A DNA stretch of 64,000 nucleotides from Nymphaea colorata (Eukaryota; Streptophyta; Magnoliopsida; Nymphaeales; Nymphaeaceae), in contig NC_045145.1 in NCBI RefSeq assembly GCF_008831285.2, positions 3,574,723-3,638,722 of the forward strand, read 5' to 3'. The notes under the pieces are model-generated. The model was given only the letters and a program-made list of their open reading frames with translations. It had not been told where the DNA came from and did not search any database. The translations under genes and the position numbers were made by a program. Within the stretch, counting starts at the first letter, position 1. Each line of letters opens with the position of its first letter. Shown one piece after another: positions 11,799 to 38,993 of this stretch.

Positions 11799-11884
11799 TC
11801 CATTGCAATAGAAAAGAGAAATGAATGATTATAATGTGGATCGGATGCGTCATGATCTTTCTTTAGTACCAGGCCCACCAAATA
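11799..11884 (+). repeat. Short duplicated segment (partner at 34698)
   Basis: About 86 bp starting TCCATTGCAATAGAAAAGAG is almost identical to 34698-34783, with a few substitutions, in the same orientation. It lies on the left of the truncated remorin duplicate exactly as its partner lies on the left of the full remorin. It may therefore mark the outer edge of one larger duplicated block. Confidence 0.8.
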
Positions 11885-15492: not shown

Positions 15493-15581
15493 TGCAGGAA
15501 GATGATGCTTTATGAATTGTGGATGCAGATGTTGATGTCTCTTGGAGGATGTTGGCACGATTACAGTTTTTTGTATCTTTA

Positions 15582-15743
15582 AGGGCTGTTTGGCAAGAGG
15601 AACACGGTATGACTTTCATAAATCTGCCTCAAATATTGGAACAAATTCATGAAACACTTGTTCAAGTGGTTCATGAACCTACCTTAATATTTCGGGTAGA
15701 TTTGTAGAACACTCAAACAATATTCCTGATGCCAAATGGCCCT
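15582..15743. mobile_element. MITE of about 162 bp (AGGGCTGTTTGGCAA ends)
   Basis: The left end AGGGCTGTTTGGCAAGAGGAA pairs with the right end, whose reverse complement is AGGGCCATTTGGCATCAGGA. The flanking triplets are TTA and CTA. The length agrees with the element at 4298-4460. It lies just upstream of the truncated remorin, outside the duplicated segment, so it probably inserted independently. Confidence 0.65.
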
Positions 15744-16994
15744 CTAGGGGTACTTCTGTGACTTTAACTCATGATTTTCTTCCTATTTGAGGTGTCTTCC
15801 ATCTAATTTCTTGTATTCCAGCACAAAACAACGCTGCAAAGTCAGAAATCAGCTGAATGTAGATTTGATCCTGACCGCGATGGACCTGCATGAATTATAG
15901 GCCAACTTAGAGATTTTATATGGTTTGTTTTATTAGTAGTTTCTTTTTAAGGCATTGAAGGACGGGATTCTTTGCGTCTTTCGTAGAACATGCTCTCCAT
16001 GAATGTAATGAGAATATCTTCTGTTATTCAGGTAGATATTATTATGCAAAAAATTGTATCTAGGTATTAGGACATGATATTCACTCGATAGTCAATATAC
16101 ATCATGATTGACTTGTCTATACATTTAGATTATACAAAAAATCGATGTAACTAAGAGAGGTGGTGCTAGAAACACCCCCTATATCACGGGTTGGGCTTCT
16201 CTGAACAGGTCCAAAAATATCTGATCCTGTGTTGTAATCTTTCGATCTCATTCCTGTTGAAGGTCCTCCGTTGTACCATAAATACTCTGTTTTGAAGTCT
16301 AAAACCCTTTCTGCAGGAAATACGCCAGTTGCCCCTTAAGCTTTCCCAGACGAAAGAAGCGGTGAGTAATTTCCATGTACCTGTACTAAAGAATTCCCAA
16401 TATTGGCGAAGTAGCTGTTTTTGAGCGCGATTCTTCCAAAGCATTTAGTTGTTCTATGGAGGCTAAGTATATATTATATAATCTACTTGGTGCATGTGGA
16501 CTCAAGAAGCTTTCGGTTGATGTTGCTCGCAATTCTTTTGTGAAGTCTCTGATGCAAAGGTCGGGAAATGTTATGGCAAGGTTGATTGCATATTCAAATT
16601 GGAATCTTGTTTCATATTAATAGTGATGGTAAGTATGATAAGTTGGGGAGATCAGTTACGAAATTCAGATTAATAAACCAGCATAATATTTGCTTGCTCA
16701 TTCTCGGATGTGCATGGAGAGTTACATTATCTGTTGGGTCACCACACATAGCAATAGCTCATTATGGCGTTAAGAGTTTGCATTTGGAATCGTCCATATC
16801 CCTCTCTCTCTCTCTATCCAATAGCACGATTTGCCCTGTGAGATGTGATATTTTTGCAGTTTGCAATGGGCACAGAATTTGTAGGTGTTAATTTTGTTTT
16901 TCTAAATGCCGCCTATAATTCTTCTCTCGTACATTAACCAGTGAAGTGCCTTCTATTTCGCCATTAAAGATAATTAATGCTCAACATGGATGGC
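15744..16994. other. Unassigned DNA with exon-like fragments
   Basis: No gene is recognised. On the plus strand 16318-16362 is an open 45-bp segment between TTTCTGCAG and GTGAGT, encoding EIRQLPLKLSQTKEA. A further open stretch (about 16440-16580) includes KYILYNLLGACGLKKLS. These may be exons of a plant gene or its remnants, but a stop in frame near 16406 and the lack of other exons argue for decay. CT microsatellite at about 16800. Confidence 0.3.
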
Positions 16995-17409
16995 CCTTTT
17001 CTGTTTTTGAAAGAAAGTTCGAAGGTAAATGAAGGATTGAACCTATCCTTGGTGCTGTATCAAAACTTCTGGATGTACTTTCTCGGCGGCCTAAGGTCGA
17101 TAACTGACGACCAAACTTTTTATGGCTTGCCAGCTCAACCTACGATGTTATACTCCTATGAGTGTTAGGTATCTAAGGCTCAGATTGCATGAAAAAAATT
17201 GTTCACAAATACCAACTAAATGATCGAAATCTTTAAAATGGAAAGACAGAAATCTGACATCCGTAAGAAATAGGGTAGTTAACGAACAATAATTACATAT
17301 ATCACCAATGTTGTTGTTCGTTACTACAGACAAGTAGTTACAGGAAAGGTTTCAGGAACCTGCCATGGTACCACCAATAATCTGTCGACCAAGATATATA
17401 CACACAACA
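16995..17409 (-). repeat. Detached fragment of the 1.5-kb array unit, inverted
   Basis: About 415 bp matches the second half of the tandem units at 24-31 kb, in the opposite orientation. It runs from the phrase TTTCTGTTTTTGAAAGAAAG to the phrase TATATACACACAACA. It carries the open frame containing SLVLYQNFWMYFLGGLR on the plus strand, which is on the minus strand in the array. It lacks the hairpin and the membrane-protein half of the unit. Confidence 0.85.
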
Positions 17410-19086
17410 CCTGAATCGGACTTTTCAGTTTAGATGTGCAGCATGATCCAAAAACAGGAAGTGTATCTAGAAATCTGCCGGCCCGTTCAGTTCCCAGCTA
17501 TAAACCAAGAAGTTGGAGCTTGTTCATCGTACTGAAAAAGGCATGAACTTAGCTAGCGAACACCACATTAATAGCCATAAAGTTTATTTGTGAAAAAAAC
17601 GTACTGAAGACGAATCAGAAAACTGAATGAATTACTTCTAGCAGTTAAAAATTCTTTTGTTGTTAAAAATTCTTGGGTTATAGGCCATTAGTAGCTGCCA
17701 AAGTGCTGTTGCCAAAAAAGTTCTCATATTTAAATATCCTTTGTCCCTAGAAGGGGCTCAATCTTGAAAATACCACTCTTAAGTCAAAGAAGCACATAAA
17801 CTTTTCTGGCGATGACAGACAAGCATACATGACGGCAAAATGATCTGATCATTTTAGGGTAACCACAGAAGATAATCTGTCAAATCATTATGTCATGGAC
17901 TCGATTAGAATTGTCCGTAAAATATGTATTCTTAGATTTAGCTGTCTAATTCTTTCCAGCTCAATATATCCTGTCATTAAAAAGCAGCAGGCCTACATCA
18001 TACATGCATTGGCTGATAATCTAGCATTAGTTACTCTTTCTACAAGTCTCCCCAAAACAGCCCTCTCTGCTGGCGTCCGATTTGCTAACCCAGTCATCAA
18101 CAAAGGTATCAGTGAAAATGATTTGAAGACAATTTTTTAGTCCCATCTTTATACATTGCTGGATAAATGCCTCAGCCCATGCAGATATGAATCTTTTCCA
18201 ATCTATAAAACTTCTCTTTTTAACTTGACATATTTCTCCTTAGATCGCTTTGAGTAAAATTGCCATACGACGGATCTGTAAAAGAACTGCATGAACAAAC
18301 ACAAAATCCGTATTTACATGAATGAAAACCTGCGTACGGGAATATGCATGCAATGGGTGCTTTTTTTTTTTTCTTTTTTCTCTTTTGTGGTCTGCAAATA
18401 GCTAGTTGGAAGTAGGCACAAAAACAATTACAGGCGCTACCAAAACAAGAACGCTAACAAAACAAGAACTCAAGACATGCCCGAATGCACATGGTTGCAG
18501 TCAAGGGATATGCATAAACACACAGAAACTAGTTAGATCCAAATATGGAATGAGTCACAAAGTGGCACATTTGCTGTAGAAACGGTAGTTAAAAATTAGA
18601 GGTCCATCTTCAGTCTTAGTCAAAGGAGATTATGACAGCAACCCCATAATGGATCATAACTAAGTCATTGTCTTGTAATGTAAAATGAACAGGTTGAACC
18701 TTATTGTAAAACCACAAGAGGTTGAAGGGAAGCTTCCTCTCAAAGCAAAGCCACTGCACCTCTTCTATTTCTCTCCAACATAACTGTGCTCATTTCGATG
18801 GCACACCCAGTGTGCCATCTCATAAAAACTCTCCCAAAAATAGAAACCCTAGAACCGCCAATTTGTAATAATAGCTCTCTACAGAAATATACAGAGTCTA
18901 GCTCATCCAACACGAATGAACAATCTGCCTCTCAAACACCATTCACAGACATTCAGTAATTGTTTTATCCGTTGTTATCAATTCATTAGAAAAAAATATA
19001 CTACATAGAAAGGCCCCCATAATACTGTTTTTTGATGAACTAACAACAAAAGCATTATGAAAATCGAAGGCCTCAATACACACACA

Positions 19087-19155
<69 letters not shown>

Positions 19156-20739
19156 TCAATTCACAAAAATTATATATCATATAAGAGGCTGTCACAAATG
19201 AAGGAGAGAGTGAGGGCGCCCCAGGACCATGCAGAAAGCCATAGATGTGTGTTCTATTATCAATTTTTAACGAGGTATAAACTATTGAATTTCACCTTAC
19301 ACATAATTGAATTTTTATGTTTAATGTTTTACCCATGATCAAGACTTGACGCAATAAGAATACTTAGGATCTCTTACCTCCCTAAAGAACATACTCGTGT
19401 ATGAGAAATACCCAGCCTAGTATATGCTTTAATTAACAAACTATGACAGAAACATCCACAATTATGGTTCTCGTTGCAAGGTAATCATAAATAGATTACC
19501 TACATAGAGACGCATGCATGCACATGCAAACTTGGAAGCACTGGCAGACATGTCGACATTCTGTGTATTTTGTTGCCTGGAGAATAAGGGGACAGGATGT
19601 TAGGAAATTTTATAACTTATAAGTCAAGTAGGATGAAGAGAACCAGGTGCTGCTCGTGTCCATTGCACATGCCATGTTACTGCAGCTTCCACCTTGAGTT
19701 TAGCACCATGATTATATTCCAACCATCTAATAAGGCTGGGTTTGTTTAGTTCCTTAAGATTCAGTATAAGCTTAATGAGATCACAGAACAGTTTTTTATT
19801 CTCCGTATTTATCGTGTATTCTGCATGAAGTCTTGTCCTGATTTAAAGGTTGATATGCAAAAGCAACAATTTTGTGGGACTAACATAATGAATGCGAAGA
19901 CCCATCTATTCATAACGTCTTCACCTGGACGTGTATCATTCTTGGAAATTTTCCATGTGCGAGTGTGCCAATGAAGAGTGAGAATCATTGTGATACATCC
20001 ATACATTCGGACTGGTTCTGCTCACCTGCACGTTAAACCACCTGTGCCCAGAGAAGGTCCGCACAGCTGAGAATCATCCATCTTCCCTGCATTGGTCAAA
20101 ACACGCCATGGCATCCTCAGTCGGCTCTTTATGTATGCATGAGTCCAACATTTTAACCGTAACTTTCGATTCAGAAATATGTCATAAAGTATTTCAAGTG
20201 GCAGAGGAGCCACACACTTCATTTGTCATTCTGCACTTCTCTTACCACCTCAAAAACTTCTAAACTTAGCTATAGCCACAGTTTGGTGGTAAATAAATCA
20301 GCAGAAAACCCTCCTACCTATGCTTATGGAGGGAAGGATATCTAAAAGAAGGTGTAACATAATAAAGAGAAATGAACAAAAAATTCAAGCTAGTATTAGC
20401 TGGAGCAATACGAAGGAGACCTTAGACTTATGAAGATAATTTACTCAATGGTTCCCTTAATCACCATGTATAGAACACAAAAGAGTAGCTCAAGAATTAA
20501 GCGCCATTAAATGGAAGACCAAGATGACCAACCCAAAAACATATCAAGGTAGAGTGATAATAATAAGAGTGCTTCTTCTAGATGAAAAAGATAAATAAGA
20601 AAAATAAGTGAAAGCGGACGAACTGATTGGCGAAAGGAAGAGAATTCTTCATGAACGCTCTGGCTGAAGGGGAAGAACATGCAATAGTACAACATAATTA
20701 GCAAATAATCGTTCAAACGTACTGTTGTGTGGACATGAA
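17410..20739. other. Intergenic, no gene seen
   Basis: About 3.3 kb without a convincing coding chain. It contains a long AC/AG microsatellite (19077-19152) and a T-run near 18361. It lies 3' of the XXT pseudogene, so part may be its former 3' untranslated region. Confidence 0.5.
19077..19152. repeat. Compound (AC)n(AG)n microsatellite
   Basis: About 25 bp of AC repeats pass directly into about 50 bp of AG repeats. It is a long, probably length-variable, simple repeat. Confidence 0.95.
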
Positions 20740-22115
20740 CTAACCAATGGTTCTGTGATCCGTAAACAAATGCAGGATGTCGAAGCTGAAGCTTGTCTTG
20801 GAAGACGACTCGTTTCTTGTCCTCTTGATCTTGGGAGTTTTGAGACTCTTATGAGTGAAACCATAAATCTGAAGAATCTGGTTGTCTGCAAAATTGAAGG
20901 CCCTCTCCATGCTGCTCAAGCACCTCTCCATTGGATAATCACCATAGCTCCCGCAATGTTTGCATCCAACAAAGTGGGTGACGAAAGGCCACCACCCATC
21001 ATCCCCCAAGCCAGGATGGTACTTTTCTTGCATCTCTTCGTACCGATCGACCAAGGCCAGCCCAGTACCCATGGAGAAAGTAAGAATTCTCAATGAAGAC
21101 CTTATTCATCCACTGCTCCTGCTGAGTGATTAGCAAGTAGATGAGCGCGGACTAATCGTCGGCCTCGAATGCAGGCCGGCTCTTAAGGTTCGCCGTGAGT
21201 ATTTTCCCTGCTTCGTCTCGAATAGGGCCTTTAGGTCCCATGGGTGCCCAGGCATCCAACAGGTCCAGCGACCATTGGCAGTTCCTGAAGAGGAAGCTGC
21301 CCGTGTTGACAGCAATCCACGATTTTTGGTTGAAGAGGAGATTCTCGTAGCCAAGGAGGACAAAATTGTAGTCCTCGTACTTGTGCATCGGAATCTCGAA
21401 GACCATATCGGTGAAGAGGGCATCGCTATCCATCCACCAGATCCATTTGATCTCTGGGTGCGACAGCATCCGCCGTCTGATCAACGGAAGCTTAGCCCAG
21501 TAGCCGGCGAGCTCCTTGTCCAGATGAGCCATGTTGTAGACGATCTCGATCCGGTGGACGCGGCAGTAGTCGATCTTGTTCTTATGGCCTTGAGCAGGTA
21601 GTGGTCGCCGATGGCGTTATCGCAAGGGTTCGGCTGGGAGCCGGTCACAAGGAGGATCCGAGGCTTACCATCTATGTAACTGGGGAATTCCGGATTCTGA
21701 GCAAGCTAGAGTTTCCTCTGCTCATCCCAATCGGTGATCTTAGGGCCCAGAGTGTAGGTCACGTTGGCGAGTCCTGCTGCCGCTTCACTTGGCTTGCCGA
21801 GCGCATTCTCGCCGCTGCCTCCACCGGCGGCATCAGTGCCACCACCACCATCACCACCACGAGTAGCAGCCGTGACTTCAACGTCGTCGTCCGGGTCGTG
21901 ATCAGATCTGATCTCTTCCAGAATCCTATTCCTTTCCTCGATCAGCTGCTGATTGTTGTGGCGTCGCCGTCGCCGCCGAGATTGCCGACACCGATGGTGT
22001 CCCTCAGAACAAGAATAGTGACGAAGCCGCAGAGGATGCTGATCTTGATATTGTTGAAGGTCTTCTGGATCTGCCTGCCTCTGGGGATGCCCGAAGCCCT
22101 CGAGGACATCCTCAT
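20740..22115 (-). pseudogene. XXT5: Dead xyloglucan 6-xylosyltransferase (GT34, XXT5-like)
   Basis: Remnant of an intronless GT34 enzyme that adds xylose to the glucan backbone of xyloglucan in the Golgi. In order on the minus strand I see the N-terminal RGRQIQKTFNNIK, the signal-anchor ILCGFVTILVLR, TYTLGPKITDWDEQRK, AHLDKELAGYWAKLPLIRR, the catalytic WWMDSDALFTD (DXD-type), GSFLFRNCQWSLDLLDAWAP, HPGLGDDGWWPFVTHFVG and ERAFNFADNQILQIYGFTH. At least five lesions break the frame: a 1-bp loss near 21955, TAG for the expected Trp at 21706-21708, a 1-bp loss near 21583, TAG for the expected Gln at 21152-21154, and a 1-bp gain near 21053. The lesions are spread along the whole frame and not at long homopolymers, so sequencing error is an unlikely explanation for all of them. 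The C-terminal end after KRTRNESSSK diverges. Confidence 0.92.
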
Positions 22116-23955
22116 GTTGGGGGGCAAGAAGAAGCACTCTCACCTCCATATTTGCCTCCCTCCTCCCCTCTCTGCCTCCTCTACAATTCAATAACACAAA
22201 AAAGATCTACCAACTGATCCACCTCTGACAACAGAATGAGAGAACACCTCTGACAACAGAATGAGACAGAATGAGACAGAATGAGAGACAGCAGACGGGA
22301 GAGAGAAAGACAGAGAGAATGGATCACCTTCTTGCTTTTAGTAGAGACGGCCGCATATAGCGCTCAAACGACAGGAGCAGAGACAGGAGCAGAAGTAGAA
22401 AGACGATAATTGGTGCTAACAACAATCAGCAGAGGAAAGGGCTTGCTATCAAGATGTATTCATTGGAAACCTGAAATTGGCGCCGTCCGAGATCTGTCAT
22501 TTATATTTACATAAGGACGGAGGCGCGGGTCAGATGAAGCTCACGCTACCTAAATCGGCTTAGCTTTTCTAAAACATTAGAGATCTTGTCGCAAACCCAA
22601 ACGCATAAACAAGTCCGGTTGTGGATAAGGTTGCAGAAGGATCAAATTAGGAACCTGCATTGCAAAATGAACAGTCGATCGGAAAACTCAATGATGTATG
22701 TGCTTGGATAGTTGTTGAATGCTTAAAATTTGATCGTTCTAATGTTCTGTAAATCATCACTAAAACTGCTATAAACTACTATCCCTGCATCACAAACAAT
22801 AACTAAATACTAGTTTAATAAATTTTTTAGTAAATTTTTAAATTGTAACTATTCAGCAAAAACTACAGTATTGAACTCTCCCAAGTATATCGATTGATAA
22901 ACGACTGTCGTTGTAGATTGGAAGCTTGAAAATGGCAACTTTTGAGCGAGACAAATATGTCTGTTACTTCGCATTTCACTGGCTGGACAAATGTGTCTGT
23001 TCCTTTGCCAAGTGAAATCTGTATAAGGATGAAAGTTTTAATCTTATAATCACCTAAGGATGAGTGTTGAGTCCTTGTATTGCCTCTCGACAAAAATTAA
23101 TAAACTAAGCAAATAAGTTTGCACAATTATACCTCTTAATAAATTATATCCCTTAAAAAATATAAAATGGCAAAACAGCATAGCCGTAACAAAAACAGAA
23201 CGTAAGTGGTAACTTTTACAAATTTAAACATAAAACCAATAAGTTCAGTTCACAACATCAATGTCAGAACATCTCTGCCACCATTGGCGTCACTGAAAGC
23301 TAGAACACTTTTTTTTTCCACACCAATCCTTGTTGACTTTAAGTTTGCAAGTTCAATCCATCGATACATTTTTCCTGAACCTACAAATATTGAAAAAAAA
23401 AAAAATTAGTGGTCTCCCTACATCCCTGTACATGCATGGGAAAAGTTAAAGTGATCTATACCTTGAACGATGATGAGATGAGCCGTGCACGTTCCAATGA
23501 CAATGATCAAACATAGCTGCATAAGAACTAAAGAGATCTTCATAATTTTGTGTCAACGGCCCTCATTAATTGCAAGTCCTATAAGATGAGTGAATATTGG
23601 AAGCGTATGCACAAAGAGAAAGAATGAAAGTGTGAGGATGAACAACATCAAAATTAACGAGTAGACGAGCCAACTTGCCGACAGCTTCACCATGAAGATA
23701 ATCTTTAGAAGAAATAGAATGTCGGAGAACTTAACCGGCATACATATTTTTGCAGTTTCAAGTGGTCGACGGTCCTCCCTTTGGTTGATTGATCACTGAA
23801 TCAGAACTGTGCGTCGAATGTTCAGTTGGGATCTGAAACTATATATTTTTTGTTGATGACTCAATTTCTTGTTGTTGTGGTGTTGTTGAGGGAGGCATAT
23901 GTATTCGGCTATTAAGCCGTGAAAGAATAATCCCCGTGGTTTGATGTCAGCAGCA
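22114..23955 (-). repeat. Left arm of a large inverted repeat (partner 31613-33703)
   Basis: Read on the minus strand, this arm first carries one array unit (unit 0, 23898-23136). It then joins, at the word AAGAGGTATAATTGTGCAAAC, about 1 kb that is the 5' flank and leader of the XXT gene, ending at the XXT start codon. The right arm has the same junction and the same order on the plus strand. Numerous small indels separate the arms, so the event is not very recent. Confidence 0.88.
23136..23898 (-). pseudogene. Array unit 0: decayed membrane-protein frame, inverted
   Basis: Inverted member of the family described under unit 4. It opens MPPSTTPQQQEIESS but meets a stop within about 20 codons (near 23840). 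The membrane segment SASWLVYSLILMLFILTLSF (23553-23741) is still open. Exon-2-like sequence follows to 23136. It is unlikely to be functional. Confidence 0.6.
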
Positions 23956-24200
23956 TGTTAGCAAACATTTTTATAAACTCATAACAGTCAAAGAACTGTT
24001 ATTTTTTTCATTATTCTATACTTTTGAAAGCATTTCTTCATAGTGTCAAAATAGCTACTTTTTCTCACAAATTTTTACCTACGCCAGCAATCATTCTAGA
24101 GGTTTCCCACATATTTCTTTGCTAACATGCTGCTGGCATCAGGTCATGGGGATTATTCTTTTACGGCTTAATAGCCGAACACATATGTCTCTCTCCACAA
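23890..24200. repeat. Unit-start hairpin (type example; recurs at each unit)
   Basis: The sequence from GAGGCATATGT through TCGGCTATTAAGCCGTGAAAG to CAGCAGCATGTTAGCAAA is repeated in reverse complement about 170 bp further on (GCTAACATGCTGCTGGCATC through TTTACGGCTTAATAGCCGAA to ACATATG). The two ATG-containing outer ends face away from each other, so a divergent pair of frames could start from one shared hairpin. Equivalent hairpins lie near 25391-25700, 26880-27195, 28393-28700, 29891-30190 and 31380-31690. Confidence 0.85.
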
Positions 24201-24948
24201 CACCGCAACAACAAGAAATCTAGTCCTTGACAATAGACTTAGAGCTTCAGATCTCAACTGAACTTTCGAGGCACAGTTCCCATTCAGCGATCAACCAAAG
24301 GGAGGACCGCGACCACTTGAAACAGCAAAAATATGTATGCCGGTACAGTTTTCCCGCATTCTATTTCTTCTGAAGATTGGCTTCATGGCGAAGATGCCGG
24401 CAAGTGTATCGTTTACCCGTTAATTTTGATGTTGTTCATCCTCACACTTTCATTCTTTCTCTCTGTGCATACGCTTCCAATGTTCACTCATCTTATGGGA
24501 CTTGCAATTAATGAGGACCGTCGACACAAAATTATGAAGATCTCATTAGTTCTTATGCAGCTATGTTTGATCATTGTCATTGGAACGTGCACGGCTCATC
24601 TCATCATCGTTCAAGGTATAGATCACTTTAACTTTTCCCATGCATATAAAGGGATGTAGGGAGACCACTAATTTTTTTTTTCAATATTTGTATATTCGAG
24701 AAAAATGTATCGAGTTCCTGAGATGGATTGAACTTCCAAACGTAAAGTCAATAAGGATTTGTGGGGAAAAGAAAAGTGTTCTAGCTTTCAGTGACGATAA
24801 TGGCGGCAGAGATGTTCTGGCATTGATGTTACAAACTGAATTTATTGGTTTTATATTTAAATTTGTAAAAGTAGCCCATTATGTCCGGTTTTTGTTACGG
24901 CTATGTAGTTTTTCCTTTTTATATTTTTTAAGGGATATGATTTATTAA
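24185..24948 (+). pseudogene. Array unit 1: decayed membrane-protein frame
   Basis: Same architecture as unit 4. The start ATG at 24185 is followed after 12 codons by TAG where other copies have GAG. A later frame (24333-24659) keeps the membrane helices (PLILMLFILTLSFFLSVHTL). An exon-2-like frame containing KCIEFLRWIELPN is open to 24948. Confidence 0.6.
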
Positions 24949-25154
24949 GAGGTGTTGCACGTCTACACTGTTGTGTGTATATATTCTAGTCGACAGATTA
25001 TTGGTGGCACCATGGCAGGTCCCAGAAACCCTTTCTGTAACTACTTGTTCGCAGTAACAAACAACAACATTGGTGATATATGCAATTATTGTTCGTTAAC
25101 TACCCTACTTCTTACCGATACCAGATTCCTGTCTTCTCATTTTAAAGATCTCCA

Positions 25155-25370
25155 TCATTTAGTTGGTATTTGTGAACAATTTTTTATTGCAATTTGAGCC
25201 TTAGATACCTGACACTCATAGGGGCATAACAACGTAGGTTGAGCTGCCAAGCCATAAAAAGTCTGGTCGTCGATTCCCAACCTTAGGCCGCCGAGAAAGT
25301 ACATCCAAAAGTTTTCATAGAGCACCAAGGATACGTTCAATCCATCATTTACCTTCGAACTTTCTTTCAA
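25155..25370 (-). other. Minus-strand open frame of unit 1 (unrecognised)
   Basis: An open frame containing SLVLYENFWMYFLGGLR followed by TFYGLAAQPTLLCPYECQ. The residues after ECQ may be intron, since GTATCT follows Gln. The corresponding frame is open in unit 3 (28160-28372) and in the detached copy near 16980-17165. I do not recognise the family. Conservation of the frame among copies hints at former coding function, but recent duplication explains it equally well. Confidence 0.3.
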
Positions 25371-25684
25371 AAACAGAAAAACCCCCGTGAGGGAGGCATA
25401 TGTGTTCGGCTATTAAGCCGTGAAAGAATAATCCCCGTGGCTTGTTGTCAGCAGCATGTTAGCAAACATTTCTTTAAACTCATAACAGTCAAAGAACTGA
25501 TATTTTTTTCATTGTTTCATGCTTTTGAAAGCATTTTTTCATAGTGTCAAAATAACTATTTTTTTCCACAACTTTTTACCTACGTCTGCAGTCATTTTAG
25601 AGTTTTCCCACATATTTCTTTGCTAACTTGCTACTGGCATCAGGTCACGGGGATTATTCTTTCAAGGTTTAATAGCCGAACACA

Positions 25685-26455
25685 TAGGTCTCTCTCCACA
25701 ACACTGCAGCAACAAGAAATCGTGTCATCGTCAATAGACATAGAGCTTCAGACCCCAACTGAACTTTCGACACACAGTTCTCATTCAACGATCAACCAAA
25801 AGGAGGACCGTCGACCACTTGAAACTGCAAAAATATGACAGCCGGTATAGTTCTCCGGCATTCTATTTCTTTCGGAGATTGGCTTCATGGTGAAGCTGCC
25901 GGTAAGTTGGCTCGTCTACTAGTTAATTTTGATATAGTTCATCCTCACACTTTTATTCTTTCTCTCTGTGCATACACTTCCAAAGTTCACTCATCTTATG
26001 GGACTTGCAATTAATGAGGGCCGTCGACACAAAATTATGAATATCTATTTAGTTCTTATGCAGCTATGTTTGATGATTGGCGTCGGTGTGCGCGGCTCAT
26101 CTCATCATCATTCGACGTATATACCACTTTAATTTTTCCCATGCATATCGAGGGATGTAGGGAGACCACTAACTTTCTTTTTCAATATTTGTAGGTTTGG
26201 AAAAAATGTATCGAGTTTCTGAGAATGATTGAACTTCCAAACTTAAAGTCAACAAATATTGGTGCGGAAAAGGAAAGTGTTCTAGCTTTCAGTGACGCCA
26301 ATGGCGGCAGAGATGTTCTGGCATTGATGTAGTGAACTGAACTTATTGGTTTTATGTTTAAATTTGTAAAAGTAGCCCCTTACGTCATGTTTTTGTTACG
26401 GCTATGCTCTTTTTCAATTTTATATGTTTTTAAAGGTTATGATTTGTTAAGAGGT
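25685..26455 (+). pseudogene. Array unit 2: most decayed membrane-protein frame
   Basis: The start codon equivalent is AGG instead of ATG (about 25686). The first membrane segment is out of frame, TAG replaces the expected codon in exon-2-like sequence (near 26329) and the usual final TAA is changed. No long open frame remains. Confidence 0.6.
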
Positions 26456-27183
26456 GTTACACGTCTAAACTGTTGTGTGTATATATTCTAGTCGACAGAT
26501 TATTGGTGGCACCATGGCAGGCCCCTGAAACCTTCTCTGTAACTACTTGTCTGCAGTAACGAACAACAATATTGGTGATATCTGCAATTACTGTTCGTTA
26601 ACTACCCTACTTCTCACTATCTTCTCATTTTAAAGATCTCCATCATTTAGTTTGTATTTATGAACAATTTTTTTCTTGCAATCTGAGCTTTAGATACCTA
26701 GCACTCACATGAGCATAACATCGTAGGTTGATCTGGCAAGCTATAAAAAGTCTGGCCGTCGGTTCCCAACCTTAGGCTGTCGAGAAAGTACATTCAGAAG
26801 TTTTGATATAGCACCAAGGATACGTTCAATTATTCATTTACCTTCGAACTTTCTTTCAAAAACAGAAAAGTCCCCGTGAGGGAGGCATATGTATTCGGTT
26901 ATTAAGCCGTGAAAAAATAATCATCGTGGCTTGATTCCAGCAGCATGTTATCAAATATTTATATAAACTCATAACAGTCGAAGAACTGATATTTTTTTTC
27001 ATTGTTCCATGCTTTTGAAAGCATTTTTGCATTTTTTCATAGTGTCAAAATAGCTACTTTTTCCCACATATTTTTACTTACGTTTGCAATCATTTTAGAG
27101 GTTTCCCACATATTTCTTTGCTAACATGCTACTGGCGTCAGGCCACGGGGATTATTCTTTCACGGCAGAATAGCCGAACACAT

Positions 27184-27950
27184 ATGTCTCACTCTACAAT
27201 ACCGCAACAACAAGAAATCAAGTCCTCGACAACAGACATAGAGCTTCAGATCCCTACTAAACTTTCGACGCACAGTTCCCCTTCAGCGATCAAATAAAGG
27301 GAGGACCGTCGACCACTTGAAACTGCAAAAATATGTATGCTGGTACAGTTCTCTGGCATTCCATTACTTCTGGAGGTTGGCTTCATGGCGAAGCTGCCGG
27401 CAAGTTGGCTTGTCTACCCGTTAATTTTGATGTTGTTCATCCTCAGACTTTCATTCTTTCTCTGTGTTCATACGCTTCCAATGTTCACTCATCTTGTGGG
27501 ACTTGCAATTAATGAGGGTCGTCGACACAAAATTATGAAGATCTATTTAGTTCTTATGCAGCTATGTTGGATGATTGGCGTCGGAACGTGCGCGGCTCAT
27601 CTTATCATCATTCGACGTATAGATCACTTTAATTTTTCTCCATGCATATCCAGGGATGTAGGGAGACCACTAATTTTCTTTTTCAATATTTGTAAGTTTG
27701 GAAAAAATGTATTGAGTTCCTGAGATGGATTGAACTTCCAAACTTAAAGTCAACAAGGATTGGTGTGGAAAATAAAAGTGTTCTAGCTTTCAGTGACGCC
27801 AATGGTGGCAGAGATGTTCTGGCATTGATGTTGCGAACTGAACTTATTGGTTTTATGTTTAAATTTGTAAAAGTAGCCGCTTACGTCCTGTTTTTGTTAC
27901 GGCTATGCTGTTTTTTAATTTTATATTTTTTAAAGGATATGATTTATTAA
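27184..27950 (+). pseudogene. Array unit 3: membrane-protein frame with early stop
   Basis: The frame opens MSHSTIPQQQEIKSS but ends at TAA where other copies continue (near 27296). From 27337 an uninterrupted frame keeps LLLEVGFMAKLPASWLVYPL, the following hydrophobic helix, HKIMKIYLVLMQLCWMIGVG and CAAHLIIIR. A separate exon-2-like frame runs to 27950. Confidence 0.6.
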
Positions 27951-28159
27951 GAGGTGTTGCATGTCTAAACTGTTGTGTGTATATATTTTGGTCGACAGAT
28001 TATTGGCGCACCATGGAAGGTCCTTGAAACCTTTCCTGTAACAACTTGTCTACAGTAACAAACAACAACATTGGTGATATCTGCAATTACTGTTCGTTAA
28101 CTACCTCACTTCTTATCGATACCAGATTCCTGTCTTCTTATTATAAAGATTTTCATCAT

Positions 28160-28372
28160 TTATTTGGTATTTGTGAACAATTTTTTTCTTGCAATCTGAG
28201 CCATAGATACCTGAAACTCATAGGGGCATAACATCGTAGGTTGAGTTGGCAAGCCATAAATTGACTGATCGTCGGTTCCCAACCTTAGGCCGCCGATAAA
28301 GAACATCCAGAAGTTTTGATACAGCACCAATGATACGTTCAATCCTTCATTTACCTTCGAACTTTCTTTCAA
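28160..28372 (-). other. Minus-strand open frame of unit 3 (unrecognised)
   Basis: Open frame with SLVLYQNFWMFFIGGLRLGT and YGLPTQPTMLCPYE, homologous to the frame at 25155-25370. The frame is broken in units 2, 4 and 5 as far as I can read. No family recognised. Confidence 0.3.
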
Positions 28373-28685
28373 AAACAGAAAAATCCCCCTGAGGGAGGCA
28401 TATGTGCTCAGCTATTAAGCCGTGAAAGAATAATCCCTGTGGTTTGATGTCAGCAGATGTTTTTAAACATTTCTATTAACTCATAACAGGGAAAGAACTG
28501 AGATTTTTTTCATTGTTTCATGCTTTTGAAAGCAGTTTTTCATAGTGTCAAAATAGCTACTTGTTCCCACAAATTTTACTTACGTCTGCAATCATTTGAG
28601 AGGTTTCCCACATATTTCTTTGCTAACATGCTGCTGGCATCCGGCCACGGGGATTATTCTTTCACGGCTTAATAGCCGAACACAT

Positions 28686-29456
28686 ATGCCTCCCTCCACA
28701 ACACCGCAACAAGAAGAAATCGAGTCCTCGACAATAGACATAGAGCTTCAGATCCCAACTGAACTGAACTTTCGATGCACATTTCTCATTCAGCGATCAA
28801 CCAAAGAGAGGACCGTCGACTTCCTGAAACTGCAAAAATATGTATGCTGGTACAGTTCTCCGGCATTCTATTTTTTCTGGAGATTGGCTTCATGGCGAAG
28901 CTGCCGACAAGTTGGCTCGTCTACCTGTTAATTTTGATGTTGTTCATCATCACACTTTCATTCTTTCTCTCTGTGCATACGCTTCCAATGTTCACTCATC
29001 TTATGGGACTTGCAATTAATGAGGGCCGTCGACACAAAATTATGAAGATCTACTTAGTTCTTATGCTGCTATGTTTGATAATTGGCGTCGGAACGCGTGC
29101 GGCTCATCTCATCATCATTCGACGTATATATCACTTTAACTTTTCCCATGCATATACAGGGATGTAGGCACACCACTAATTTTTGTTTTCAATATTTGTA
29201 TATTCGAGAAAAATGTATCGAGTTCTTGAGATGGATTGAACTTCCAAACTTAAAGTCAACAAGGATTGGTGTGAAAAAGAAAAGTGTTATAGCTTTCAGT
29301 GATGTCAATGGCGGCAGAGATGTTCTGGCATTGATGTTGCGAATTGAAGTTATTGGTTTTATGTTTAAATTTGTAAAAGTAGCCCACTACGTCCTTTTTT
29401 TGTTACGGCTATGTTGTTTTTCCACTTTATATTTTTTAAGATATATGATTTATTAA
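28686..29456 (+). pseudogene. Array unit 4: best-preserved membrane-protein frame
   Basis: The family consensus reads as a polar N-terminus (SSTIDIELQIPTEL, then HSAINQREDRR), a long hydrophobic hairpin (FLEIGFMAKLPTSWLV, LILMLFIITLSFFLSVHTL), a basic loop NEGRRHKIMK, a third helix (VLMLLCLIIGVG) and AHLIIIR. A possible intron (CGAC/GTATAT to about 29205) follows, then a second exon with KCIEFLRWIELPNLKST and a C-terminal helix FVKVAHYVLFLLRLCCF ending at 29456. In this copy a 5-bp duplication (CTGAA, near 28765) shifts the N-terminal frame. The remainder, 28775-29167, is open. I do not recognise the family. Every copy has a different lesion. Confidence 0.55.
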
Positions 29457-30177
29457 GAGGTGTTGCACGTCTAAACTGTTGTGTGTATATATTCTAGTCG
29501 ACAGATTATTGGCGGCACCATGGCAGGTCCTTGAAACCTTCTCTGTAACTACTTGTCTCCAGTAATGAACAACATTGGTGATATCTGCAATTATTGTTCG
29601 TTAACTACCCTACTTCTTACCGATACTAGATTCATGTCTTCTCATTTTAAAGATTTCCATCATTTAGTTGGTATTTATGAATAATTTTTTTCTTGCAATC
29701 TAAGCCTTAGATACCTGACACTGGCAATAACATCATAGGTTGAGCTGGCAAGCCATAAAAGTCTAGTCGTCGGTTTCCAACCTTAGGCCGCTGAGAAAGT
29801 ACATTCAGAAGTTTTAATACAGCACCAAAGATACGTTCAATCCTTCATTTACCTTCGAACTTTGTTTCAAAAACAGAAAAATCCCCATGAGGTAGGCATA
29901 TGTGTTCGCTATTAAGTCGTGAAAGAATAATCCACATGGCTTGAAGCCAGCAGCATGTTAGCGAACATTTCTACAAGCTCATAAGAGTCAAAGAACTGAT
30001 ATTTTTTTCATTGTTTCATGCTTTTGAAAGCATTTTTTCATAGTGTTAAAATAGCTATTTTTTTCCACAACTTTTTACCTACCTCTGCAATCATTTTAAA
30101 GGTTTCCCACTTATTTTTTTGCTAACATGCTGCTAGCCACGGGGATTATTCTTTAACGGCTTAATACCCGAACACAT

Positions 30178-30945
30178 ATGTCTCCATCCACAACATCGCA
30201 ACAACAAGAAATCGAGTCATTGACAATAGACATAGAGCTTCAGATCTCAACTGAACTTTCGATGCAATGTTCTCATTCGGCGATCAACCAAAAGAAGCAC
30301 CGCCGACCACTTGAAACTGCAAAAAATATGTATGCCGGTACAGTTCCCCAGCATTCTATTTCTTCTGGAGATTGGCTTCATGGCGAAACTGTCGGCAAGT
30401 TGGTTCGTCTACCCGTTAATTTTGATGTTGTTCATCCTCACACTTTCATTCTTTCTCTCTATGCATACGCTTCTAATGTTCAATCATCTTATGGGACTTG
30501 CAATTAATGAGGGCCGTCGACACAAAATTATGATGATCTATTTAGTTCTTATGCTGCTATGTTTGATGATTGGCGTTGGAACGTGCGCGGCGCATCTCAT
30601 CATCATTCGACGTATAGATCACTTTAATTTTTCCCATACATATCCAGGGATGTAGGGAGACCACTAATTTTCTTTTTCAATATTTGTTGGTTCGAAAAAA
30701 ATGTATCGAGTTCCTGAGATGGATTGAACTTCCAAAACTTAAAGTCAACAAGGATTGGTGCGAAAAAGAAAAGTGTTTTAGCTTTCAATGACACGAATGG
30801 TGGCAAAGATGTTCTAGAATTGATGTTGTGAATTGAACTTATTGGTCTTATGTTTAAATTTGTAAAAGTAGCCCCTTGCGTCATGTTTTTGTTACGGCTA
30901 TGTTGTTTTTCCATTTTATATTTTTTAAGGGATATGATTTATTAA
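30178..30945 (+). pseudogene. Array unit 5: membrane-protein frame with frameshift
   Basis: The N-terminus is open from ATG 30178 (SPSTTSQQQEIESL) but an extra A in the A-run near 30325 shifts the frame, so translation ends at 30507 in a wrong frame. The correct frame resumes as 30311-30655 with the usual hydrophobic helices. The exon-2-like part has a TGA near 30828. Confidence 0.6.
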
Positions 30946-31612
30946 GAGGTGTTGCACGTATAAACTGTTGTGTGTATATATTCTGGTCGATAGGGCACCA
31001 TGGCAGGCCCCTGAAACCTTCCCTATAACTACTTGTCTGCAGTAACGAACAACAACATTGGTGATATCTGCAATTACTGTTCGTTAACTACCCTACTTCT
31101 TACTGATACCAGATTTATGTGTTCCAATTTTAAAGATTTTCATCATTTATTTGGTATTTGTGAATAATTTTTTTCTTGCAATTTAAGCCTTAGATACCTG
31201 ACACTCATAGGGGCATAACATCGTAGGTTGAGCTGGCAAGCCATAAAAAGTCTGGTCGTCGGTTCCCAACCTTAAGCCGCCGAGAAACTACATCCAGAAG
31301 TTTTGATACAGCACCAAGGATACGTTCAATCCTTCATTTACCTTCGAAATTTCTTTCAAAAACAGAAAAATCCCCGTGAGGGAGGCATATGTGTTCGGCT
31401 ATTAAGCCGTGAAAGAATAATCCCCGTGGCTTGATACCAGCAGCATGTTAACAAACATTTCTATAAACTCATAACAGTCAAAGAACTGATATTTTTTTTC
31501 AATGTTCTATGCTTTTGAAAGCATTTTTTTCATAGTGTCAAAATAGCTACTTTTTCCCACAAATTTTTACTTACGTCTGCAATCATTTTAGAGGTTTCCC
31601 ACATATTTCTTT

Positions 31613-33703
31613 GCTAACATGCTGCTGGCATCAGGCGACGGGGATTATTCTTTCATGGCTTAATAGCCGAACACATATGCCTCTCTCCACAACACCGCAA
31701 CGATAAGAAATCGAGTCCTCGACAATAGACATAGAGCTTCAGATCCCTACTGAACTTTTGACGCATAGTTTCCATTCAGCAATCAACCAAAGAGATGACC
31801 ATCGACTTCTTGAAACTACAAAAATATGTATGCTGGTACAGTTCTCCGGCATTCTATTTTTTCTGGAGATTGGCTTCATGGCGAAGTTGTCGGAAAGTTG
31901 GCTCGTCTACCCATTAATTTTAATGTTGTTCATCCTCACACTTTCATTCGTTCTCTTTATGCATACGCTTCCAATGTTCACTCATCTTATGGGACTTGCA
32001 ATTAATAAGGACCGTCGACACAAAATTTTGTAGATGTATTTAGTTCTTATGCAGCTATGTTTGATGATTGGCGTCGGAACGTGCGCGGCTCATCTCATCA
32101 TCATTCGACGTATTCATCACTTTAATTTTTTCCATGCATATCCAAGGATGTAGGGAGACCACTAATTTTCTTTGTCAATATTTGTAAGTTCGGGAAAAAT
32201 GTATCAAGTTTCTGAGATAGATTGAACTTCCAAACTGTTAAAGTCAACAAGGATTGGTGTGGAAAAGAAAAGCATTCTAGCTTTTAGTGACGCCAATAGC
32301 GGCAAAGATGTTCTGACATTGATGTTGCCAACTAAACTTATTGGTTTTATGTTTAAATTTGTAAAAGTAGCCATTTACGTCATGTTTTTGTTATGGCTAT
32401 GCTGTTTTTCCATTTTATATTTTTTAAGGGATATGCTTTATTAAGAGGTATAATTGTGCAAACTTATTTGCTTAGTTTGTTGATTTTTGTCGAGAGGCGA
32501 TACAAGAACTCAATACTCATCCTTAGGTGATTATAAGATTAAAACTTTCATCCTTATACATATTTCACTTTTCAAAGAAATAGACACATTTGTCCAGCCA
32601 GTGAAATGCGAAGTAACAGGCATATTTGTCTCGCTGAAAAGTTACCAATTTCAAGCTTCCAATCTACAACGACAGTCGCAAGTGGTCGAGATTTGGTATG
32701 AGTAAATATACTGAATCGGATCTCTATCTTTTAATGCATTTTTCAGTCCGGAATACAATCCATTTGTGGCCAACACCAGTGATTTTAGCAAATCTAGCAA
32801 AAACTTGGAACCTACAACTAAGGTCGCTAGTGGTATTAATTTGCTTGAGAATTTCGTCAATCGATATACTTGGGAGAGTTCAATGCTGCAGTTGTTACTG
32901 AATAGTTACAATTTAAAATTTTACTAAAAAATTTATTAAATTAGTATTTAGTTATTGTTTGTGATGCAGGGATGGTAGTTTACAGTAGTTTTAGTGATGA
33001 TTTACAACATTGGAATGATGAAATTTTAAGCATTCAACAACTATCCAGCACATACAGCATTGAGTTTTCTGATCAACCAGATCTGATTTCTGTTCATTTT
33101 TCAATGCATGTTCCTAATTCGATCCATCTGCAACCTTATCCACAATCGGCCAGACTTGTTTTTGCGTTTGGGTTTGCGACAAGATCTGGAATGTTTTAGA
33201 AAAGCTAAGCAGATTTAGGTAGTGTGAGCTTCATCTGACCCGCGCCTCCGTCCTTCCTTATGTAAATATAAATGAAAGATCTCGGACGTCATGCACAGTG
33301 CCAATCATTCTCTCTCTCTCTCTCTCTCTTCTAGAATAGGACAGCTTTGCTCTGAGCCCTTTTTACCATGGAAGCCCTTTTTACCATGGAAGCCCTTCTT
33401 TCTATTTGGGGTTTTCAATGAATACATCTTGATAGCAAGTCGGCCAATTATCGTCCTTCTACTTCTGCTCCTGCCGTTTGAGCGCTATATGCGGTGGTCT
33501 CTACTAAAAGCAAGAAGGTGATCCCTTCTCTCTGTGTTTCTCTCTCCCTCTACCTATATCTCTTTGTCTGCTTTCTCTCATTCTGTTGTCAGAGGTGGAT
33601 CAGTTGGTAGATCTTTTTTGTGTTATTGAATTGTAGAAGAGGCAGAGAGGGGAGGAGGGAGGCAAATATGGAGGTGAGAGTGCTTCTTCTTGCCCCCCAA
33701 CAT
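31613..33703 (+). repeat. Right arm of the large inverted repeat
   Basis: Carries array unit 6 and then, after AAGAGGTATAATTGTGCAAAC (about 32447), a copy of the XXT 5' flank and leader. It ends at the word CCCCCCAACAT, which in the XXT locus runs into the start codon ATG. Beyond 33703 the sequence is unrelated. No XXT coding sequence is present, so this arm is a promoter-plus-leader duplicate. Confidence 0.88.
31677..32444 (+). pseudogene. Array unit 6: membrane-protein frame with early stop
   Basis: Opens MPLSTTPQR then TAA. The later frame 31758-32033 keeps the first hydrophobic hairpin but ends early at HKIL because ATG-AAG is changed to TTG-TAG. The exon-2-like frame (32259-32444) is open and ends normally. 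Confidence 0.6.
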
Positions 33704-34035: not shown

Positions 34036-34697
34036 TGAGGGAAGATCAGATGGTTGGAATTAGTTCTTGGATGGATGAAATTTTTATGTGTTAGAGTAGG
34101 AACCATTTATGAATTGAACAAACTGCATTTTTCAAAATCAGAGAGAAAAGAAAGTAAAAACTTAAGATGTGTCCACCTTAAAATAGAATTTGAATGTGGA
34201 TCCATTAGAAAGCTGTAATAGAAATGATCATTTTGGAAGGGAAACCTGTTTTCACTTTTCATGGATTAAACCAGAATTAGTGGTTGAATGTTTGGATCAT
34301 GGATACGGTCGAATTCGATCCGTAGATCGTCATCGTCTCATGGAGCAGGCAAGGCAAGAGCCTCAGCCTAGTCCCGCGTAGGCTGGAGTTTCATTTTCAG
34401 TAGCACACGATAAAGGAACGCTAAAGGGAAAACCAGGAAGAAAGGATTCGGTGGTGGAGACGGAAAGCGGGTGGAGATGAGCAGAGCGCCCAAGCAAAGA
34501 ATGATTTCGTGAGCTTTCAGCCTCTCTCCATCAGTCGGTTGCTTTTCGGTTGTGCTTCTTGGAGAAGAAGTTTATGCGAATGAAGAATTTGCTGTAGAGG
34601 AGACGGTAAGCGCGAAGGCAGCACGTACAGAAAATGTCGATGGTGGTGCTAAGACGAAAGTCTTCCATTCTAGGTGCCGGAATCAGGTGGAGATCCA

Positions 34698-34777
34698 TCC
34701 ATTGCAATAGAAAAGAGAAATGAAAGATTATAATGTGGACCGGATGCGTCATGATCTTTCTTTAGTTCCAGGCCCGC

Positions 34778-34783
<6 letters not shown>
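34698..34783 (+). repeat. Short duplicated segment (partner at 11799)
   Basis: Nearly identical to 11799-11884 in direct orientation. It ends where an (AT)n microsatellite begins. Confidence 0.8.
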
Positions 34784-36025: not shown

Positions 36026-38955
36026 TCAGAAGCAGAAGCAAGTCTGAGGAGCCTCTCCCGTTAACCTGATCCTTCGCGCTCTTTCCTTTACCTTCATCTC
36101 TTCATTTCTTCGTTTCTCCTCTGCCTGAGACCTTGCACCACCTGCAATCTTATTCACAGACTTCATTTCATCCCGATATTCCCCAGTAGCTATTGCTATC
36201 TTCCTCTCTAGTTCTTCCTGCAATGCCAACAAAACCGATGACATGGTAACTAGTAATTCTCATAAAGACGTCCTTGGTTTCAAAGAAATCGTGCAACAAT
36301 TACTTGCTTCCTCTCCAGTCTAGATTTTGCTCTCCTTTGCCTCTTCTTCTCCCAAGCTTCAATTGCCTTCACGGATTCTTCATACCTGAAAATTCTTCCT
36401 CGTTGAGAGAGAGCAGTTTCCATATTAACCACGAGAACATGCAAGTAAAGGTTACCTCTGTTGTATTGCAGCCAATTTTGCGATTTCCCAAGCAGCAGCT
36501 TTCATCTCATTATTGTTACTTGCTAGCTTGTTTGGTAACCTCGGAGCTACATAATTTGTAGGTCTTGATGCAGGCCTCACTGTACCGCTACCATTGGAAA
36601 CCTTTCTTTTCTCTGTTGATGTCGGTATTCTTCCCATCGTTGGAGTTCTTCCTGGCTTTGGTCCGTCTACCGTAATCTCTGGTGTTTTTGATGAAGCTTC
36701 CCCTGTGGCAGAACTTATAAGATAAAATTCCTTGCACATGACGGGAAGGAGAGGCAAGTGAACCAAGCCCCATCCCATGTCTTAACTGTACCTAACCCAT
36801 TTGATCAGATATCTCAGTTCCTGAATCTAGGTGGGCATCCTCAATCTGGATCTTGAACTGTAGACAATTGAATTCAGTGTACCTTTTTTTCCTTTTGAGA
36901 AGCAGAGAACTTTGCAAATTCCCTGGCATGGAAGTTCAGATTTGACCCAAAGGGAATCAAATCTGATTTGCTAAAAAAGATTACAGTATTGTCCTGTTTG
37001 CAAACTTGTAAACACAGTAACTTGAATCCACAAAAGCAATGATCAATGGTAGCATCATTTGATGGATGAACGCAGACGAAAATTTTCTGAACGTATATAT
37101 TTCTAACAGCGGCAACAATTATAAGATTAAGATGGCAGTCTTAGTGACTAGTTGACGTTTATTACATGAAAGGAGGTTTTACTGTCATAAATTCACACTT
37201 TCTTTTAGTTGGCAGTCTGGGTTTTAGACAGACTTCTGTCAAATTGTGCCAAGAGATACACCCCAGGTATCACATTCTTAACCGAGAGAACTTATGTACT
37301 AACATGAATATTAGCTACTTAAATTATTTAGGATCAGGGGCGACTTTGGCCGCGGCCATTAATTAAGGCTGTAAAGAACCGTAAACTACTAGTACCTCTA
37401 TATTGCTTGTCTTCTTTAGAGGACTTCCAGGATAGCCGTCTGGACATATCACCAAGCTGTGAAGGACTTGCTGCGCCTTCCTCTCTTCTTCTGCTAAGCT
37501 TAAATCTCGAATCCATTCCTTCACCGGACCTCCTCTGGCTGAAACCATCAGGTTCTTCCACCATTTTTATGGCATAAGCAGATGCCGCCACGGCAGTTTC
37601 AAATTGACCATCTCTACTTGGTTCATACCCTAAAGGTACACCTTTTAAGCCAGGTATCTGCCATCCGAACACGTTGACACCTTCTTTTTTCTCTGCAAAA
37701 TCAGCCAAAACAATAGCTCTATTGTCTATATGGCATTCATCTCATCGCTCTCTCTCTCTGTGTGTGAGAATGAAATGGAAACGGAAACACGAGCTCATTT
37801 ACACAAGAATATTTTTCTTGTTGACATCATATATAGGAATTAAAGAAAATATATGTTAAACGTATTCGTTGGACCAAGAAGTAGTCTGTCATAGTAATCA
37901 TCTATGTCATGTAAACTATGCATTTCCAACTGCTACAAATTGGCATGAATTGCGTCAAACTTGCAACTTACAGCTTTAGAATTTGGATACTGTCGCACAC
38001 TTGCACCTCGTGAACAACCAAAATGAAGAATCAAATTGCAACCCCCGGATTACAAATCAAAAGCGACATACTGCAATTTTTTTTTTTTTTTGGGTTTTCT
38101 GTTGTCACCAGTATGGGCAGTATTTTGAGCCAAAATAGCTCCTAATGCCATTTGGGCAATCTTGCTATATTTTTGAATCATCAGAATATGCGTGATAAGC
38201 TCATGCTATTCCCGATCTTTTGGGAGGAAAAGAAAAACTTAGTTGTAAGTCATTCTTTGCATTTTCGTTTCTTTTGTAATTTATAGAACTTCTTTGAAAG
38301 TTTATTAATAGTTTTGTAGGAAAATAGTAAGACTGAGAGTTTCACATTGCTTCCGTTATTACCTTTTCATGTTTTGAATCCTTTTCAAGATTTTCTCGGG
38401 AAACAAAATTTAGAACCTCGGCTGAAGATATTCCTGCCTAATTGCCAATAGGAATATTGGTGACTAATTTTATTTTCATCACAACTAAGGAAAATGAATT
38501 TGCCTTGTGATAACAAACAGGTCTGAGAAATTGATTTTCCTGTTTAGAGAACCAGGACACAAGTTGCCGAATGTAAGCAGAGAGTTCCCGGTAACAAGAC
38601 CCTACCACCGTTACGATCATCCAAATTTTCAGCAATACCTCTGAAAGATTGACCCTTCCGTATGGAGATCTGGCGCCCTCTTCTGTTGACAGGTTCCTGA
38701 CTTTCCTCTCCAATGCCACTAAATGTTACCCTGTAATCAGACATAACGATTAACGATCTAGCTGTTAGGACTGAAATTGGAGAACTTATTCAGAGTTACA
38801 GATGGTGCCACGATATGATCAGCTTTCATGGCACCCAGATGGATTTTGGGGGGCTAGGCTTCAAATTACTTTCACGGACTTGGCACGAGCCAAGAAAAAA
38901 CAATTGCCATCTTCATTGTGTAGACTTACCGCAGTTGTTGAACCAGGCCTTCCAT
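36026..38955 (-). CDS. Remorin family protein
   Basis: Plant plasma-membrane nanodomain scaffold protein. Six exons join in phase to 322 residues: 38955-38930 (MEGLVQQL), 38730-38606, 37692-37396, 36702-36456, 36385-36304 and 36217-36026, all GT-AG. The start is chosen because MEGLVQQLR then VTFSG parallels the N-terminus of long-form remorins, with a strong GTAAGT donor. The N-terminal half is basic and disordered, with GRQISIRKGQSF and AVAASAYAIKMVEE. The conserved C-terminal domain (about residues 210-315) contains AAAWEIAKLAAIQQRYEES, IEAWEKKRQRRAKSRLERK and EEKRRNEEMKVKERARRIR, a coiled coil. It ends in TCFCF, a terminal Cys-rich anchor typical of remorins. The first three exons lie in a segment duplicated at 13751-15492. 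The alternative upstream reading at 38744 (MSDYR) would begin inside intron 1. Confidence 0.93.
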
Positions 38956-38993
38956 TGTTATGCCAGTATGAACTTCTGTGCTTCTGTCGAACT
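37237..38993. repeat. Segmental duplication, copy 2 (source copy)
   Basis: Direct partner of 13751-15492. It is likely the source because the remorin gene continues unbroken to its C-terminal exons here. A short insertion near 38750 and T-run length near 38080 are the main length differences. Confidence 0.93.

Follow-up and report, generated by a model that had tools for sequence, protein, structure and literature searches.

Tandemly arrayed gene clusters are a known class of locus. Human germline inverted duplications formed by fold-back consist of head-to-head copies around a short spacer; in the accessible text of PMC3907307 they are marked by fold-back spacers and short inverted homology, with spacers of 766-70,466 bp in the sequenced cases. 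In cancer genomes, templated-insertion or local multi-jump rearrangements by template switching string copied segments together while the sources stay in place, as outlined in the available part of PMC7025897. The Foldback transposon Tetris combines tandem repeats with inverted arms, the repeats lying inside the arms, and its copies have target-site duplications of 8-10 bp according to the portion of PMC4079207 at hand.

The locus described here shares traits with each of these. It lies in a window of 64,000 nt, the whole stretch of DNA analysed (C8:3574723-3638722), within a host genome of 407.8 Mb in 783 contigs. Compared with the human fold-back duplications, as the accessible text presents them, it is far smaller, old and diverged, has tandem units between its arms and has a shorter spacer. 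Whereas it resembles the cancer rearrangements in its strung-together segments with sources in place, it is inherited, belongs to a plant and holds one fusion unit five times in tandem. In contrast to what is described for Tetris, its tandem repeats lie between the arms, and no target-site duplication above chance was found among five end pairs tested. With tandemly arrayed gene clusters it has in common that the repeated unit includes an exon from a family clustered locally, but this unit is chimeric and free of constraint, and a palindrome surrounds the array. We read the locus as an old, fixed, complex rearrangement built from local pieces and now decaying, in which a fold-back or template switch was followed by tandem amplification (probability about 0.68); it has the look of debris left by rearrangement, not of a transposon or a functional gene. 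A literature search, with most subscription journals outside its coverage, returned no report of this locus.

The features are as follows, located by self-BLAST of the window unless another source is given, with modules labelled A, sp, A', B, C and P.

16997-17409, minus strand: native module C in the XXT 3' flank, apparent source of the array's C (self-BLAST, genome search, paralog comparison)
20740-22116, minus strand: XXT5-like GT34 pseudogene with broken frames (Pfam Glyco_transf_34, XXT5 of PDB 9p3j, paralog)
22114-23130, minus strand: left arm, part P, the XXT 5' flank (self-BLAST, paralog comparison)
23131-23965, minus strand: left arm, part B'A, an inverted copy of the exon block
23966-24117, plus strand: spacer sp, centre of the first palindrome
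23887-25387, plus strand: unit 1 (A-sp-A'-B-C)
25388-26876, plus strand: unit 2
26877-28389, plus strand: unit 3
28390-29887, plus strand: unit 4
29888-31376, plus strand: unit 5
31377-32449, plus strand: unit 6, partial (A-sp-A'-B without C, continuing into P; self-BLAST, junction alignment)
31610-33703, plus strand: right arm (A'-B-P), reverse complement of 22114-23965
54423-54529, plus strand: the one further copy of sp, matching part of the spacer and lying between exons in a presumed CLPB-type gene (self-BLAST; genome search, 54428-54529)

From left to right the locus reads XXT (minus strand), P' B' A, sp and A' B C, then four more times A sp A' B C, and finally A sp A' B P followed by unrelated flank. 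Self-comparison of the window, a check proposed by an earlier sequence-only reading, reproduced the structure as claimed: where about five direct 1.5-kb units had been described between the arms, 23887-32449 holds five full units of 1489-1513 bp and a partial sixth of 1073 bp, enclosed by the inverted arms. Thus the fusion unit A-sp-A'-B-C stands five times in tandem. The full units are 89-91% identical in pairs, and the seven copies of the A'B block 88-91%, with no near-identical pair. Rfam at gathering thresholds gave 0 matches in the whole window.

The window also holds several repeats outside this structure. A direct repeat of 1.75 kb (13751-15492 and 37237-38993; 97.4% identical, starts 23.5 kb apart) flanks the XXT/array region, is younger than the array by divergence and contains a 135-codon open frame without a Pfam match. 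An 87-bp direct match (11798-11884 and 34697-34783; 95%) is possibly a small mobile element, and a 107-bp inverted match (75%) joins 63244-63350 and 44126-44020.

The arms are 88.6% identical over 1814 ungapped columns and align as three inverted pairs (31610-32678 with 23965-22902, 32857-33288 with 22897-22484, and 33404-33703 with 22477-22114). The E-values of these pieces, from 0 to 2e-85, exclude chance. These are the arms of the sequence-only reading with their inner ends moved from 23955 to 23965 and from 31613 to 31610, and the junction between an array unit and the XXT upstream region that it saw in both is indeed common to them (B|P, AAGAGGT|ATAATTG). At the palindrome centre, 23131-23965 and 24118-24953 are inverted copies, placing the block P-B-A head-to-head around a 152-bp spacer. 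The homology of the right arm stops at the AT of the XXT start codon. While the arms differ by ~11% overall, the outermost 131 columns (22114-22244 and 33573-33703), which adjoin that start codon, have one mismatch, a run equalled in length in 0 of 2000 shuffles; by eye, the paralog described below is also well conserved there. This near-identity suggests that conversion or constraint overlies the history of the arms, and may reflect 5'-UTR constraint, conversion or both.

The gene next to the left arm had been called dead, and its counterpart elsewhere bears this out. The pseudogene matches Pfam Glyco_transf_34 (E 1.4e-36) and aligns with XXT5 of PDB 9p3j as two pieces in different frames, whereas an intact paralog, with a stop-to-stop frame of 470 codons at C8:2.980 Mb, lies 0.6 Mb from the window (C8:2979426-2987525). 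The paralog is inverted relative to the window and has colinear flanks; among nine joined 10-kb stretches, colinearity covers window positions 15488-22901, and the two genes are 95.8% identical over 1389 bp. XXT and its flanks were thus duplicated between C8:2.98 Mb and the window, where the copy is broken and the A'B exon sits upstream of flank P. The 5' flank of the paralog aligns with P of both arms, and ~175 bp of it are kept in the right arm and missing from the left. The outer part of P is present upstream of the paralogous XXT; its inner ~200 bp have no counterpart there. In 90 kb around the paralog, neither an A'B block nor a second arm was found at E 1e-8 and 70 bp. The claim that the arms derive from the XXT 5' flank is therefore upheld, as the intact paralog carries outer P without the array.

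To order the events, we compared P from both arms and the paralog. In the unmasked three-way alignment, the right arm is 92.0% identical to the paralog and 86.9% to the left arm, the closeness of right arm and paralog coming partly from misaligned simple-sequence columns. Once columns with local identity <0.7 were removed, a rule of our own making, 554 clean columns were kept, in which the left and right arms show 29 differences, left arm and paralog 53, and right arm and paralog 42. As the two arms are closest to each other in the masked columns, we conclude with moderate confidence that the inversion is probably younger than the segmental duplication of XXT.

The sequence-only reading had left the array unit as unknown. 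That description no longer holds: the unit combines sp with a segment of XXT 3' flank and with the first exon of a family of genes. A genome search, which skips common words and so gives copy numbers as lower bounds, placed C at 7 sites, namely the five units, 16997-17409 and C8:2985476-2985852 at the paralog. The paralog's C occupies the same spot as 16997-17409, with matching sequence on both sides, so that C belongs natively to the 3' flank of XXT and the array is the recipient. Of the ungapped sites at which all five units agree, 236 are the same in all, 38 unite the units with 16997-17409 against the paralog, 10 unite them with the paralog against 16997-17409, and at 4 both differ from the units. 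By these site counts, the array's C appears to descend from the 3' flank of the window's own XXT. A coding role for C as a second exon was rejected, since the frame that is open in unit 1 is closed by a stop at one shared position in the other four units and in 16997-17409.

For sp the same search also gave 7 locations, of which six are in the array and the seventh is 54428-54529. With a Pfam AAA_2 exon at 53038-54087, we take the gene holding this last copy to be CLPB-type, from the AAA_2 match and general knowledge, and its sp site to be an intron, so that the sp piece of the unit is shared with a probable CLPB intron. Copying between the array and 54428-54529 could have gone in either direction. 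Out of a 408-Mb genome, the non-array sites of C and sp in the window lie 6.5 kb and 22 kb beyond the edges of the array, and C, sp and the XXT flank all fall within one 38-kb stretch. A dispersed-repeat origin of C or sp was discarded, each having been found in 7 places by that search; for the unit, such a reading was kept for the exon block only, where the repeat is a gene family.

The junctions within the array are uniform. B|C (AAGAGGT|GTT) lies at one common place in five units, and all five C|A junctions lie at one position, indicating that the array descends from one fusion unit. Few bases are shared at the junctions. The 10-mer AATCCCCGTG at C|A, which also occurs ~42 bp inside A, is possibly a templated insert; it is exact in 1 of 5 junctions and present in the others by majority letter only, and 39 of 5000 random 10-mers occur in unit 1. 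Each unit (6/6) begins with its own inverted repeat, with arms of 66-78 bp that are 79-92% identical and a spacer of ~150 bp.

The remaining block, A'B (about unit positions 229-731), is the first exon of an unnamed gene family resembling membrane proteins. The majority sequence of its seven copies has a 205-codon open stretch, matched in length by 3 of 2000 dinucleotide shuffles, and coding ancestry is supported by 57 exon-piece matches in a protein search of the genome: 13 in the window, 33 at C8:23.5-24.4 Mb, 2 at C8:22.80 Mb, 6 on C3 and one each on C5, C6 and C11. In nine members that were read out, the stop-to-stop frames span 179-249 codons, and an alignment of 11 sequences shows that these members have a hydrophobic core in common. 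None of the nine reached the Pfam cut-off (the exon's best E, 0.0097, is also below its cut-off), and a PDB search with the exon gave no usable family. The predicted structure of the unit-4 ORF is all helices (pLDDT 61.7, pTM 0.35). Among ten pairs of five intact members, dN/dS is 0.39-0.90, implying weak to moderate constraint on the family. Window copies are 69-77% identical to the compared C3 and C8 members and 59-62% to a more distant one, L022.

A closer look at this family shows that the exon is arrayed elsewhere too. At C3:7.497-7.504 Mb (C3:7496836-7503833) there are five tandem copies, 83-88% identical over the repeat, with a period of ~1.5 kb and otherwise different sequence from the window units. 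At C8:24.205-24.220 Mb (C8:24205377-24219821), 16 copies of the exon's first part were seen in two retrieved stretches, spaced mostly ~0.66 kb apart. A head-to-head pair at C8:22.80 Mb (L013 5064-6285; 95% alike, ~200 bp apart) has the same geometry as the window's palindrome centre, and a partial pair lies at C8:24.24 Mb. The combination of palindrome and tandem array had been called unlike any standard transposon; indeed no transposon signature was found in it, but these other arrays and pairs make it less singular than supposed.

The copies have decayed without coding constraint. Relative to the unit consensus, transitions are found at 64/603 CG, 63/618 CHG, 111/2105 CHH (0.053) and 61/4660 A/T positions. 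Raised CG and CHG transitions are the pattern expected from cytosine methylation. The P arms have similar C-to-T rates in a pairwise measure, so the excess is not specific to the array. Of the exon changes, 53/206 are synonymous (0.257; 0.268 expected under the same spectrum), and 10 stops are seen where ~10 are expected, so no coding constraint is seen since the copies arose; the two exon copies without a stop, in units 4 and 5, both carry indels. The tree of units and arms is near-star, with only the left-arm copy and unit 1 set apart (support 84, 8 shared sites). Transversions at A/T sites number 10/560 in the P arms, 9/475 in the B arms and 183/8560 in unit pairs, the latter not being independent; at such similar rates, arms and array look about equally old.

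The likely order of events would be a segmental duplication, then head-to-head doubling and fusion, quick amplification, and decay. Fold-back with template switching, at a fork that had stalled or broken, may have produced the inversion and may also have joined C and sp; re-replication or unequal exchange would then have multiplied the unit quickly, and methylation may have driven part of the decay. The sequence-only reading had proposed an inverted duplication of the XXT flank plus one unit with tandem gain, perhaps by template switching; duplication and gain are borne out, although only part of one unit is inverted. Template switching in replication, which we infer, becomes more likely given that C and sp were otherwise found only 6.5 kb and 22 kb away (C also at the paralog). 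Such nearby sources are in keeping with fold-back plus template switching, and so are the head-to-head block with its short spacer and the common fusion junctions. The 152-bp spacer counts against the fold-back part, being shorter than the human spacers.

The finding of head-to-head exon pairs elsewhere bears on the inversion step, as such a pair may have pre-existed upstream of XXT, making fold-back unneeded there. On this alternative, which we regard as unlikely, unequal crossing-over made the array, and C and the inversion of P came by further breaks. The pair at C8:22.80 Mb, the partial one at C8:24.24 Mb and the other tandem arrays of the exon agree with it, but it leaves C, sp and the inversion of P together with B unexplained, sp has no match in the C8:22.80 Mb pair, and units and arms appear similar in age. 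In gross geometry the locus resembles Foldback elements such as Tetris, as described in the available part of PMC4079207, and might be read as a non-autonomous DNA transposon of that type, its inverted arms long and its tandem repeats internal. This reading is very improbable: the flanks at the palindrome ends share a longest word of 4 bp (96% of 300 random pairs do equally well or better), the 5 bp shared near wider ends at the 54.4-kb copy of sp are no more than chance would give, the arms are XXT host flank rather than element ends, and sp and C are not dispersed. That no transposase was visible in the sequence agrees with Pfam, which gave no family above cut-off among the array ORFs scanned, though non-autonomous elements lack one anyway. 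Transposons with Helitron-like ends were likewise set aside after an inspection by eye confined to the unit and 16997-17409.

Two further readings carry little weight beside a local rearrangement. The inverted arms and hairpins might give rise to small RNAs by which XXT or the exon family is silenced; the hairpin of unit 3, the only one folded as RNA, has a z of -10.1 against shuffles (0/100 as stable), and CG and CHG transitions are raised. We consider this a long shot, as window copies are just 69-77% identical to most family members and the C-to-T excess extends to CHH (0.053) and the P arms, so that hairpins are not singled out. An assembly artefact, judged here from the assembled sequence, is hardly credible, since the array copies are ~9-12% divergent with copy-specific sites; a contig duplicated in assembly is unlikely to differ so much.

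With local rearrangement as the preferred reading, the locus is an inherited plant case of a complex inverted-plus-tandem rearrangement whose unrearranged counterpart and likely source pieces are in the same genome, and the survival of that counterpart and of probable source sites makes it unusually well documented. It shows how a duplicate gene may have its flank remodelled as the intact paralog persists. That one exon family has been arrayed repeatedly offers a testable clue to why sequences rearrange. The exon is tandem in at least three places and head-to-head here, at C8:22.8 Mb and partly at C8:24.24 Mb, and it is conceivable, if doubtful, that the exon itself is prone to rearrangement, the three arrays (window, C3:7.5 Mb and C8:24.2 Mb) differing in period or in non-exon sequence. 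Were the exon indeed the driver, for example through hairpins or stalled forks, plants would have in it a coding-sequence seed from which palindromic and tandem amplification recurs.
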